This document shows, one piece after another, positions 4,935 to 49,494 of a stretch of 64,000 nucleotides of DNA; the first letter of the stretch is position 1; each line of letters opens with the position of its first letter. The stretch lies in the NCBI GenBank assembly GCA_026225415.1, contig JAMFSS010000007.1, positions 1 through 64,000 on the forward strand, read 5' to 3'. The position numbers and the translations under genes were made by a program. Source of the stretch: Alphaproteobacteria bacterium. GTDB taxonomy: Bacteria > Pseudomonadota > Alphaproteobacteria > UBA9219. The notes below the pieces were generated by a model. The model saw only the letters and a list, made by a program, of their open reading frames with translations, was not told where the DNA came from and did not search any database.

Positions 4935-6224
4935 ATGGATAACACAATGGACTCTATTCGCATTATCGGCGGCAAACAGCTTAAGGGCAGAATTCATATC
5001 AGCGGCGCGAAAAATGCCGCGCTGCCTTTGCTGGCCTGTTGCCTGCTTACCGATGAAACGCTGACTCTGGGCAATGTGCCGCATCTGGCCGATATCATCA
5101 CCATGTCGAATTTGCTGGGGAAATTGGGCGTTGATATCAGCCTGAACGGCACATCCGGCGCAGGCCGCGTGATGGAATTGAAAGCCGCGACACTTGCCAG
5201 CACCACGGCGCCCTATGATCTGGTGCGCCAAATGCGTGCCAGCATTCTTGTGCTCGGCCCTTTGTTGGCCCGCGCCAACGAAGCCAAAGTTTCTCTGCCC
5301 GGCGGTTGCGCGATTGGGTCGCGCCCTGTCGATCTGCATATCGCGGCTTTGCAAAAACTGGGCGCTGTTATCACGCTCGATAACGGTTATATCAATGCGC
5401 ATGCACCGAACGGATTAAAGGGCGCGGAAATTACCTTTCCGATGGTTACGGTAACCGGCACCGAAAATATTATGATGGCCGCGACGTTGGCCAAAGGCGA
5501 AACCACAATCGTGAATGCCGCCCGTGAACCCGAAGTTGTCGATCTGGCGCATTGTCTGGTCGCGATGGGCGCACAGATCGAAGGCATCGGCTCTGACCGT
5601 TTGCGCATTACGGGCAAAGATAAACTGCACGCGGCCAAACACAGCGTTGTGCCCGACCGTATCGAAGCGGGCACTTTCGCGATGGCCGCCGCCATTACCG
5701 ATGGTGAATTGGAATTGATCGGCGCGAAGATGGAACATTTGAACAGCGTCGCAGCTATCTTGGCCGAAGCGGGCATCGGCATGGCCGAAACCGCCGAAGG
5801 TCTTATGGTGCGCCGTATCGATGGGTTGAATGGCACCGATGTGATGACCGAACCCTATCCCGGGGTCCCGACCGATTTACAGGCGCAGATGATGGCGTTG
5901 ATGTGCGTCGCCAATGGTGCGTCGATGATCACCGAAACCATTTTTGAAAACCGTTTCATGCATGTGCCCGAATTAAAACGCATGGGCGCCAATATCACTG
6001 TGCATGACTCATCCGCATTGGTGCGCGGCGTGCCGTTACTGACCGGTGCCGAAGTTATGGCGACCGATTTGCGCGCGTCTGTTTCGCTGGCGCTGGCGGG
6101 ATTGGCTGCCCGCGGCGAAACCACGCTCAACCGCATCTATCATCTGGATCGCGGCTATGAAAGGCTGGAAGAAAAACTGGCGGCGTGCGGTGCGGATATT
6201 GAGAGAGTCAAAGCCGCCGCATGA
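4935..6224 (+). CDS. murA: UDP-N-acetylglucosamine 1-carboxyvinyltransferase
   Basis: 429 residues. MurA transfers enolpyruvate from PEP to UDP-GlcNAc, the first committed step of peptidoglycan synthesis. It has two inside-out alpha/beta barrels. The substrate-binding SGAKNAALP motif is near residue 20, and the catalytic Cys is seen at residue 125 in [13 protein letters not shown], so it should be fosfomycin-sensitive in principle. The C-terminal [16 protein letters not shown] is typical. The frame is open from 4869, but those upstream codons are AT-rich and atypical. The ATG at 4935 (or 4947) gives the normal N-terminus [15 protein letters not shown]. The stop overlaps the DUF2948 gene by four bases (ATGA). 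Confidence 0.97.
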
Positions 6225-6640
6225 GTAATCTGCTCAAACTCCGTGCGCGCGATGCCGAAGATGTCGAAGTAATCTCTGCCGTACTACAAGATTCCATCGT
6301 GCCGCTTTGCGATATGGCGTTTCAGGTGGAATCGAAAACTTTTATTATCGTCGCCCAACGTTTGAAACGCGACGCGGGCAAAGACGCCGAACGCATTTGC
6401 AGCGCTTTAACCATAGCTGGTGTGAAGTCGGTGCAAACTAACGGCATCGACCAAAATGATACCGGCCGTATGCTCGATCTGCTTGCGCTGATGCTGGATG
6501 CGTCCATGTCTTCGCTAACCTTCATGTTCGCGGGCAATGCGCAAATCCGGCTCGAACTGGGGGAATGGGGCGCGGCGGTCGAGGATTTTGGCGAATCCTG
6601 GCCCGCTTTATGCGCGCCATGCCACGAATCCACCGTTTAA
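6221..6640 (+). CDS. DUF2948 family protein
   Basis: 139 residues. Beginning [31 protein letters not shown], with [11 protein letters not shown] further on and a central [15 protein letters not shown], it matches the DUF2948 family, which follows murA in many Alphaproteobacteria. The protein has alternating short strands and helices, no signal peptide and no membrane segment. It contains three cysteines. Its start overlaps the murA stop (ATGA), so the two are translationally coupled. The function is unknown; a link to cell-wall synthesis is suggested by this neighbour only. Confidence 0.85.
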
Positions 6641-6704
6641 CTTGACGGAAAGCCCAAAAAAGCCCACTTTCCGCCTCCAAGCGCTTAAACACTAGAAAGA
6701 TACA

Positions 6705-47483: not shown

Positions 47484-47559
47484 GGGGCCATAGCTCAGCT
47501 GGGAGAGCGCAAGCATGGCATGTTTGAGGTCAGGGGTTCGATCCCCCTTGGCTCCACCA
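47484..47559 (+). tRNA. tRNA-Ala (GGC)
   Basis: 76 bases with encoded CCA. The acceptor stem is GGGGCCA with TGGCTCC (one G-U pair), D arm GCTCAGCTGGGAGAGC, anticodon stem CAAGC/GTTTG with loop ATGGCAT (anticodon GGC), and T arm GGGGTTCGATCCCCC-like. Degenerate copies of its 3' end occur at 48608-48660 and 49210-49245, each behind a single AT-rich gene, so this tRNA is a likely integration target. Confidence 0.97.
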
Positions 47560-47721
47560 TTTTAACTATAATTAGTTCTAATTATTTTCAAATTCTAATG
47601 TTATAAGGCTAGGCGAAGTTAAATTTGCTCTGGATGAAAGCAAATAGCTTCTTGTCGATAATGATTTTATTTACGATCACGTCTGCGTAATTTTTACTAA
47701 GTTTAACTACAGGGAATAATT

Positions 47722-48453
47722 ATGAGCTTCATTATTAGCAAAGATGCATTACCTAGCGATGAGCTTTTGGATCAAATTGCCAAAACTCCAACGGAGAAAC
47801 TATCGACATTGGTCGATCCTGAGTTTTTTCAAAATCTTTCAGATGAGAAATTCATGCGCGTCGCAACGTTGCTCGCGCAAAAAGGCTATGACGAGGGCGG
47901 TTGTCCGATCGGTGGCGTGATTATCGATGATGAAACGCGTCAAATTATTGGCAAGGGCCATAATACCATGATGCAGGAGCTCAATTCGGTTGTGCATGGC
48001 GAAACAGCTGCAACTATTGATGCGGGTCGTGCAGCAAAACTTAAAGGTGAATCAAAGCCAGTCGATTTTTCTAAAACAACAATGTTCACTACACTGACGC
48101 CGTGCCGGGTTTGCTGTTGCCAACTTAATACACGCACAAGGCCGGCGCGTATTGTTATTGGCGATATTACGAATGCGCCAAGTAGCGAACCGAGACTTCA
48201 TGGTATGAAGGTGGAAATTCTGGAAGATCCAAAAACAATTGAGCTTTATAAAAGGTATTCCGAAGAGTTTCCGGAGAAGCATTATGCTGATTGGCTAGGC
48301 CAGGCATGGTATGAGAAGAACAAGCAATTGCCACCTGAGGAGTTGCTTGCTGCAGCGATTGCCGAAGTGAGAGATCTAGATATAGCTGATGCTAATGCGC
48401 ATAAAGTGTTAGTTGGTGCTGTACGTCCAAGCTTAGCAGCAAACCCTTCTTAA
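47722..48453 (+). CDS. Cytosine/nucleoside deaminase-like protein, cassette copy
   Basis: 243 residues. The zinc site is HGETAA and PCRVCC (His-x-Glu and Pro-Cys-x2-Cys), the pattern of cytidine/deoxycytidylate deaminases; KGYDEGGCPIGGVIIDDETRQIIGKGHNTMMQE matches the yeast-type cytosine deaminase start. It is closely related to the core gene at 61217, with LAQKGxDEGGCPIGGVIID identical in both. An insertion after the catalytic Glu and about 45 extra C-terminal residues are unique to this copy. Shine-Dalgarno CAGGGA precedes the ATG. It lies between tRNA-Ala and a copy of the tRNA 3' end, and is AT-rich: probably acquired. Substrate (cytosine, nucleoside or other) is unproven. Confidence 0.8.
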   Translation: MSFIISKDALPSDELLDQIAKTPTEKLSTLVDPEFFQNLSDEKFMRVATLLAQKGYDEGGCPIGGVIIDDETRQIIGKGHNTMMQELNSVVHGETAATIDAGRAAKLKGESKPVDFSKTTMFTTLTPCRVCCCQLNTRTRPARIVIGDITNAPSSEPRLHGMKVEILEDPKTIELYKRYSEEFPEKHYADWLGQAWYEKNKQLPPEELLAAAIAEVRDLDIADANAHKVLVGAVRPSLAANPS

Positions 48454-48488
48454 TTTTGCAAGCGCATTGTGATTTGACTCCCAAGAGG

Positions 48489-48620
48489 AATATCGAACCG
48501 GACAATCAGGGTTAATTTCGCTAATGGCGTATAGGCTGCTGCGCGGCGCTAATGGTTTGACTTCCTTCGATTATCGCGCAAATTCTGGCAAGCTCACCGG
48601 TGGCCAACTGGTTCGATATT
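48489..48620. repeat. 11-bp inverted repeat next to the tRNA-Ala 3' copy
   Basis: AATATCGAACC at 48489-48499 is the exact reverse complement of GGTTCGATATT at 48610-48620, with 110 bases between. The right arm is part of the tRNA-Ala-like sequence (T-loop GGTTCGA plus TATT). Such an arrangement may be a recombination site or the foot of a large stem. Confidence 0.6.
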
Positions 48621-48660
48621 GCTCCCCTTGGGTCCACCATTAACTATATTATTGAGATAT
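48608..48660. repeat. Degenerate copy of the tRNA-Ala 3' end (att-like), copy 2
   Basis: GGTTCGAT, a short insert ATTGCT, then CCCCTTGGGTCCACCAT and TAACTATA match the tRNA-Ala T arm, acceptor strand, CCA and the bases downstream of it (47535-47570). One acceptor base differs (TTGGGTCC for TTGGCTCC). Similarity extends into the AT-rich flank. It looks like the far end of an inserted cassette. Confidence 0.75.
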
Positions 48661-48770
48661 TTTAATTATTAAGCGCCAAAATCTTTTGCCGTGAAAATAT
48701 TCTTCTCCATATCTTTCTTATAAAAGAAACTCTACTTCTAAGACATCGAAATTTTTGCAGTAGGGATATT

Positions 48771-49157
48771 ATGCACTTAGGATACACAGTTATATATGTA
48801 GAAAATGTACAAAAGACGGTTGAGTTTTACGAAGCCGCCTTTGGCCTGACGCGACGTTTAATTAAACCAAGTGGCCAATATGCCGAAATGGAAACAGGAG
48901 CTACAACGCTCGCTTTTTCTCAGGAAAATTTAATGGCTGCAGACTATCCGATGCTCCCAAATCGTCCGGACGAAAAACCATGTGGCGCCGAGATCGCATT
49001 CTTTACCGATGATGTGCCGCAAGCCTATGATCGAGCGATTAAGGCTGGAGCCGTAAGTCATGTGACGCCCCATATCAAGCCATGGGGGCAATCGATGGCG
49101 CATGTTCGGGATAACAATGGATTTCTTATCGAGTTTTGCACGCCACCTGCGCCCTGA
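48771..49157 (+). CDS. VOC-family (glyoxalase/bleomycin resistance) protein
   Basis: 128 residues. Two beta-alpha-beta-beta-beta units are visible: MHLGYTVIYVENVQKTVEFYEAAFGLTRRLIKPSGQYAEMETGATTLAF and the second half IAFFTDDVPQAYDRAIKAGAVSHVTPHIKPWGQSMAHVRDNNGFLIEFCTP. The end GFLIEFCTP holds the Glu that usually binds metal. Members include glyoxalase I, dioxygenases and drug-binding resistance proteins; the substrate is unknown. An AGGGATATT region precedes the ATG. It is AT-rich and flanked by tRNA-Ala-like copies, so it is a second cassette. Confidence 0.88.
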   Translation: MHLGYTVIYVENVQKTVEFYEAAFGLTRRLIKPSGQYAEMETGATTLAFSQENLMAADYPMLPNRPDEKPCGAEIAFFTDDVPQAYDRAIKAGAVSHVTPHIKPWGQSMAHVRDNNGFLIEFCTPPAP

Positions 49158-49494
49158 CTTTCTGAGGCGCAAAGTGCCAAGATATAAGGCATGCCAGTAA
49201 CAAAAAATTATGGGTCGATATTACCCCCCTTGGCTCCAGCAATTTCATTTATAAGACAATTTCGTGCGCGCGTTGCCGAAAACGCGATAAATCCGGGTCA
49301 ATTTCTGGCTTCTATCCATCTTTATTTTTCAATCTTCCCAATAAAAACAACCACTAAACCTCCGCGCCCCGCCGTTATGGTTAACGCGGCCCCGGCGATT
49401 AGGTTTGTTTTCCCCCCTCAATTCGTCTACAAGAAATGCATAAAATAAAGCGATTTTACAATCTTCGTGCGGAAATTTCCGCCCCAAAACCCGG
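49158..49494. other. Intergenic region after the VOC cassette (337 bases)
   Basis: It holds the third tRNA-Ala 3'-like copy (49210-49245). A short open frame across 49191-49448 has no recognisable product and starts within the repeat, so it is not counted as a gene. The rest shows nothing I can name. Confidence 0.55.
49210..49245. repeat. Degenerate copy of the tRNA-Ala 3' end (att-like), copy 3
   Basis: TGGGTCGATATT followed by ACCCCCCTTGGCTCCAGCAATTT matches the tRNA-Ala T arm and acceptor strand (TTGGCTCCA), with CCA changed to GCA and a TATT insert shared with copy 2. It marks the right end of the VOC cassette. Confidence 0.7.

Follow-up and report, generated by a model that had tools for sequence, protein, structure and literature searches.

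How did a deaminase gene and a VOC gene come to lie in tandem behind a tRNA-Ala(GGC) gene, each followed by a sequence resembling the 3′ end of that tRNA? The question is raised by positions 47484-49241 of a 64,000-nt stretch of contig JAMFSS010000007.1 (the window, as the whole stretch is called here), which comes from a 2.02-Mb alphaproteobacterial genome labelled G000. The two units are probably non-autonomous members of a family of large serine recombinase (LSR) elements that insert at tRNA 3′ ends, moved by a co-resident LSR. Labels beginning with G denote genomes of relatives or viral records (G023 and G155 are the same), and those beginning with L denote loci or contigs.

The two ends, described in the initial annotation as copies of the tRNA 3′ end, are real sites. 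They are identical at 25 of 30 positions; the next-best 30-nt match in the window scores 18 on the same strand and 18 on the other, and in 200 order-1 Markov resamples of the window the maximum never exceeded 21 of 30. A degenerate site pattern (up to three mismatches) occurs twice in the genome, both times at the tRNA-Ala(GGC) locus, and the reversed pattern, used as a control, has no match. A chance resemblance, the alternative raised with the initial annotation, is not borne out. Site 1 forms part of a conserved end of about 95 nt common to other genomes (nhmmer E 1.6e-22).

Antisense translation of such ends, starting from CCA, yields similar peptides of the form (V)ExxGxxSNxxxFDELxRWGAIIENxR...; nine of 14 have their stop at codon 39. 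Outside the DNA half-site, in codons 12-30, not one stop interrupts the 252 codons of this frame (the GTG frame), whereas the other five frames contain 9-24. The mean BLOSUM score of the frame is 1.80, compared with 0.25 ± 0.28 (SD) after column shuffling, a score as high being reached in 0 of 1000 shuffles. The conservation of the end is thus protein-coding. The antisense open reading frame (ORF) was considered as an independent small gene; it has no significant Pfam or PHROG match and is explained by fusion to an LSR, of which it forms the C-terminal tail. In G001 (L134), a tail lies directly ahead of an LSR body within an array, and its frame continues upstream into the LSR, restoring a full, re-joined reading frame of 542 aa. 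The viral record G152 has body and tail in a single ORF of 533 aa, with phage-like genes behind it. In the viral record G144 (51,650 bp), the tail profile matches at 56-163 (E 2.7e-16), and the LSR body occupies the far terminus of the record, where it ends in residues encoded by the antisense strand of a tRNA (VEPRGIEPLTSTMPLLRSP); the tRNA-Ala(GGC) gene is visible in L302, a sister of this provirus. The G144 ORFs include terminase, portal, S49-protease and tape-measure-like genes, recognized by eye from translations and not by profile search. An LSR gene that is split in G144 and joined in G152 is what an attP inside that gene would predict. The gene is also split in two small elements of G171, and the window holds tail remnants only. 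In this family, attP appears to lie within the integrase gene, and integration separates the two parts of that gene to either end of the element. The ends of proviruses G147 and G149 yielded no such tail.

In L131, a 169-aa ORF without a Pfam match (6189-6698, minus strand) reads through the attachment site into the tail; tails can therefore become fused to non-LSR proteins.

The LSRs contain Resolvase, zinc-ribbon and Recombinase domains (the Recombinase domain being below the curated cut-off in one of three tested), and the A118 integrase is among their nearest solved relatives. Related LSRs occur in Alpha- and Gammaproteobacteria, Nitrosomonas and Nitrospirales/Nitrospinaceae. At 69 of about 90 related loci, the 3′ end of the LSR gene lies on or near the antisense strand of a tRNA gene, with a tRNA-encoded C terminus (50 LSR-tRNA pairs when redundancy is removed); the targets are Ala, Arg, Leu, Val, Ser, Phe, Tyr, Met, Thr and Lys tRNAs. 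In G171, two LSRs that are 97% identical, with attP arms identical at 29 of 30 positions, are found at tRNA-Ala(GGC) and tRNA-Tyr(GTA) of one genome. In these two elements, the distance between LSR start and tail is only 2.9 kb in one and 4.1 kb in the other, which indicates that small autonomous islets exist besides phages. LSR islets of 4-6 kb carry two to four cargo genes. No match to the LSR was found in 50,697 records of isolated phages, and there was one partial plasmid match.

Some further features of these loci were seen in passing. In several more distant LSR subfamilies of the window's family (L171-L220), the LSR ends inside Glu, Met, Asn, Gln, Pro, Arg and Ser tRNA genes. The G171 islets (L347:17083-20000 and L350:15873-20000, about 4.5-6 kb) have ORFs that, read by eye, look like a response-regulator receiver in one islet and like an Rrf2-type repressor, flavohaemoglobin, SugE-like and HEPN-like proteins in the other. 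In tRNA-Ala proviruses, a second serine-recombinase-like ORF, of only 134 aa, directly precedes the LSR (L301:7935-8339, L072:3235-3639).

The anatomy of the sites points in the same direction. From GTTCGA to the end of CCA there are 23 nt in the window's sites and 18 nt in the tRNA, a difference of 5 bp, and the unshifted identity of site 1 with the tRNA up to this end is TCCACCA only. When 23 tails and 50 tRNAs are compared, with the last A of CCA as position 0, GTTCGA lies at -28 to -23 in the tails and at -23 to -18 in the tRNAs, and the two agree reliably in CACCA only. A conserved TT of the LSR-side arm mirrors GTTCGA about a centre at -2.5; from this symmetry, the crossover is predicted to fall at the discriminator base and the first C of CCA. 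For the LI integrase, attP has its outer (zinc-ribbon) motif 5 bp farther from the centre than attB does, and the attP half-sites are 25 bp (Rutherford et al.; PMC3783163). The TATT insert of the initial annotation appears to be this published attP/attB motif shift of LSRs: a change in spacing does exist, but its size is 5 bp. Similarly, of the T arm, acceptor strand and downstream bases which the copies were said to share with the tRNA, the acceptor end stands; the T-arm likeness is GTTCGA at another spacing, and the rest appears to be LSR attP arm and LSR gene tail. An outer motif 5 bp farther out in attP, around a shared central dinucleotide, is characteristic of LSR elements and is present here; the window locus resembles such elements in its sites only, the LSR itself being absent from the genome. 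Since the T-loop and CCA are common to tRNAs, one such LSR could use many of them.

Comparison of relatives supports the earlier suggestion of repeated site-specific insertion at one tRNA. At their tRNA-Ala(GGC) loci, G002 and G009 retain the upstream glycosyltransferase gene, but what follows the tRNA is different in each. Behind this tRNA in G002, G015, G016, G017 and G018 there are sites of the same type, in which the stretch running from GTTCGA (or a one-base variant) through CCA again measures 23 nt; the tail-ended units there carry other cargo. The ungapped end of about 95 nt is common to these five genomes and G000 (nhmmer 57-80 bits), and a sequence-only model of it gives strong matches (E <1e-8) only in the window's family, in the same six genomes and in G001 and G023 (several in G023). 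Other cassettes ending in the motif, which the initial annotation had proposed to seek, are present in seven further members of the family, mostly without an LSR, and as many as three stand in an array on one contig. Altogether there are about 20 LSR-less ends across eight genomes, with unrelated cargo.

In G023 there are 16 tail matches with E <= 0.1, among them several weak ones; they cluster on several contigs with a spacing of about 1-2 kb. Where the contig includes the tRNA, they lie at tRNA-Ala(CGC), Tyr(GTA), Leu(CAG) and Leu(GAG). The cargo comprises RidA with SDR, an aldehyde dehydrogenase (ALDH), an AraC-type regulator with a DUF2000 protein, a 2-hydroxyacid dehydrogenase, ParDE and, by eye, a GNAT-type toxin-antitoxin pair; elsewhere it includes GIY-YIG and YkuD genes (G018) and an M48 peptidase (G015). 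On three G023 contigs, an N6-methylase-like gene precedes the first tail, and the same gene borders the tail of provirus G144, so that a prophage end stands first in the row, ahead of the cassettes. On one of these contigs, the prophage end agrees with two cassettes over about 180 bp as far as CCA and over the next 65-73 bp; the identity falls off abruptly at -185, and the cargo is unrelated. Two G023 loci have 80 identical terminal bases and different cargo, and in G016 (L092) the 90 bp after the tRNA are identical to the 90 bp after the tail (97 bp with the shared TCCACCA). At the left ends of G023 cassettes f2 and f3 there are degenerate LSR C-terminal codons (FQTA*...SNVL), by which some units at least are shown to derive from LSR elements through deletion; this is compatible both with mobilized cassettes and with remnants.

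The direct repeat in G016 looks fresh and encloses a small unit, the two ORFs of which look like a toxin-antitoxin pair.

In the mechanism proposed here, attP is embedded in the LSR gene, with about 26-40 codons remaining to the stop. The LSR would recognize the universal T-loop GTTCGA and cross over at the site predicted above. Integration would restore the tRNA and place the LSR body antisense into it, so that the tRNA now supplies the C-terminal codons; the tail would stay behind at the other end, together with half of attP. This loss of the tail may change the LSR. The autonomous forms would be a siphophage-like provirus of about 51 kb and the 4-6-kb islets with LSR and cargo. All that the window cassettes retain is a single cargo gene between a left end and the tail/attP arm, and their most likely origin is loss of the LSR body followed by movement through an LSR that a co-resident phage or islet supplied. 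Units newly arriving would enter next to the tRNA. The VOC end, distal from the tRNA, is the more decayed of the two in the window, its tail being gone beyond about 11 codons and only the last ~30 nt retained; this fits such an order of entry and proves nothing. Because G000 has no LSR, the units would not move now without a helper, and any mobilization would have to act in trans. This was also the suggestion of the initial annotation, which had seen no integrase nearby: for LSRs, the absence extends to the whole genome, and mobilization in trans fits the data as an inferred step.

Several points weigh against this reading. Neither an LSR candidate nor a circular intermediate was found in the window's genome, the left ends of both window cassettes have no recognizable LSR remnant, and site 2 is degenerate. 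An empty tRNA-Ala(GGC) site, sought by synteny, could not be shown among the relatives examined because their downstream flank is not conserved. The joined form of LSR and tail is seen in one viral contig and one array contig, and an AlphaFold2 model of LSR plus tail gives the tail a low pLDDT of about 30-36. The action of an LSR on these sites is deduced from sequence, no recombination having been observed. In addition, LSRs normally do not recombine attP with attL, so that serial insertion would need a left end that mimics the host flank; identity of this kind was found only in G016, over 90 bp.

The main rival to mobilized LSR cassettes is passive decay, in which successive LSR prophages or islets were deleted internally, leaving the tail, the attP arm and adjacent cargo, and were never mobilized as cassettes. 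The degenerate LSR codons of f2 and f3 are in keeping with it, as is the lack of a helper LSR in G000, and islets of 4-6 kb with two to four cargo genes would yield such units on loss of the LSR. It accounts less readily for some 20 LSR-less ends with unrelated cargo in eight genomes, for the loss of identity at the same -185 position in a prophage end and two cassettes, for two loci of one genome with identical terminal bases and different cargo, and for tails that remain open and coding. On this balance it is possible but unlikely. Ordinary tyrosine-integrase islands, that is, P4-like elements inserted serially at tRNA-Ala(GGC) whose integrases were lost and whose 3′ copies are displaced tRNA ends, are very improbable. 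Serial insertion at tRNAs is known (PMC4383910), and P4-like tyrosine integrases lie directly behind the same tRNA-Ala(GGC) in G003 (L068) and G011 (L074), so that two unrelated integrase classes use the site. However, only (T)CCACCA matches without a shift, which leaves no displaced tRNA fragment identical to the tRNA; the remainder is the conserved LSR gene tail with a spacing 5 bp longer, and tails are joined to, or lie opposite, LSR genes and not tyrosine integrases. On the putative island itself, no tyrosine integrase or other recombinase gene was found between 47560 and 49241 (ORF list and Pfam).

A third possibility, that the units are integron-like cassettes with an attC hairpin folded as a single strand, is extremely improbable. 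Single-gene cassettes, toxin-antitoxin cargo and arrays do resemble integrons, and a hairpin was first suggested by the inverted repeat 48480-48499/48610-48629, the partner of which lies about 110 bp upstream and is shared with G015. This partner is an inverted copy of the half-site, about 163 bp before CCA and beyond the tail stop codon, and 26 nt of it are identical in G015, which is of another genus and has other cargo; however, it was detected in the window and G015 only. Folding of the DNA is no better than that of shuffled sequence (z -1.5 at site 1, where an attC-like hairpin was rejected as not significant, and z 0.3 at site 2), and the conservation is that of coding sequence. The tyrosine recombinase matches in G000 are two proteins of ~310 aa (Xer-sized) and one 456-aa integrase, with the IntI-specific region unchecked; considered as helpers, they showed no link to the site.

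The proposed LSR elements share features with several known systems. With A118/LI-type large serine integrase elements they have in common the Resolvase, Recombinase and zinc-ribbon domains and the 5-bp shift of the zinc-ribbon (ZD) motif between attP and attB (PMC3783163). They differ from these in having attP inside the integrase gene and in forming LSR-less one- or two-gene units in arrays. Integrons are the textbook route by which bacteria collect single genes in arrays. Like integron cassettes and arrays without an integrase, the units hold one or two genes (toxin-antitoxin modules, small enzymes), with a conserved site at one end and no integrase; unlike them, they have a site made of half an LSR attP and the LSR gene tail, a tRNA gene and not attI as the platform, and no attC hairpin. 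The integrase of Myxococcus phage Mx8 is a tyrosine recombinase. It too has attP inside int, and integration gives it a new C terminus, described as a switch, but no cassette family is described with it (PMC6070905). In archaeal 'suicidal' SSV-type integrases, attP again lies in the integrase gene, the gene is split to both ends, fragments mark past insertions, and excision may need an intact relative (PMC8371274); the present family is bacterial, uses a serine and not a tyrosine recombinase, and splits off only a tail of ~26-40 residues, the catalytic part remaining whole. Because its recombinase domains are of the serine type, it would work like the SSV family without being a member of it. 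Integrases that disrupt their own gene have been called exclusively archaeal (PMC8371274), and for an attP placed within the integrase gene Mx8 supplies a precedent from bacteria (PMC6070905).

According to Islander, serine integrases are not known to target tRNA genes (PMC4383910). A word search of the open-access literature found no description of serine-integrase cassettes at tRNA genes, and an earlier account of serine integrases at tRNAs may exist. In a wider proposal, for and against which the balance seems about even, the family would be a serine-recombinase counterpart of integrons: LSRs reading T-loop and CCA would use almost any tRNA gene as a platform, mobilize in trans LSR-less cassettes carrying half of attP in the integrase tail, and build arrays in which an upstream cassette can restore the split integrase behind it, as in G001. 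If true, this would be a separate gene-collecting route built on a serine integrase and tRNA genes. It would give a concrete rule by which one serine integrase targets many tRNAs (T-loop motif plus CCA, with a 5-bp shift), extend the split-integrase switch of the SSV/Mx8 type to serine integrases and explain tRNA-end-like repeats without an integrase nearby. As tools, too, integrases able to insert after any tRNA gene would be of use.

Table 1. Features of the locus behind tRNA-Ala(GGC), in window coordinates
Feature	Position	Strand	Evidence
tRNA-Ala(GGC), integration target	47484-47559	+	ARAGORN
GTTCGA (T-loop) of tRNA-Ala(GGC)	47536-47541	+	
Predicted crossover dinucleotide AC (discriminator base and first C of CCA)	47556-47557		Spacing and symmetry of tails, tRNAs and LSR-side ends
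Putative cassette 1, 1080 bp: left end, deaminase gene, LSR tail, attP half-site	47560-48639	+	
Cargo gene 1, cytidine/deoxycytidylate deaminase family protein, 243 aa	47722-48453	+	PF00383, E 5.8e-16
Inverted copy of half-site, GGTTCGATATTCCTCTTGGGAGTC / GACTCCCAAGAGGAATATCGAACCGG	48476-48501	-	
Antisense ORF, 38 codons and stop, 3′ tail of LSR gene, VDPRGAISNQLATGELARICAIIEGSQTISAAQQPIRH*	48521-48637	-	Tail profile, 61.9 bits
attP-type half-site 1, GGTTCGATATTGCTCCCCTTGGGTCCACCA, GTTCGA at 48611-48616	48610-48639	+	
Putative cassette 2, 602 bp: left end, VOC gene, degenerate attP half-site	48640-49241	+	
Cargo gene 2, glyoxalase/VOC superfamily protein, 128 aa	48771-49157	+	PF00903, E 3e-13
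attP-type half-site 2, GGGTCGATATTACCCCCCTTGGCTCCAGCA, degenerate (GGTCGA; CCAGCA for CCACCA)	49212-49241	+	

The two cargo genes (Table 1) were of little use as tracers of mobility: homologues of the deaminase occur in only two of 23 relatives and of the VOC protein in only one, none of them beside a recognizable tail. A second deaminase gene, with no recognizable tail adjoining it, lies 13 kb downstream in the same genome (61208-61783, minus strand) and is 52% identical to the cassette deaminase.
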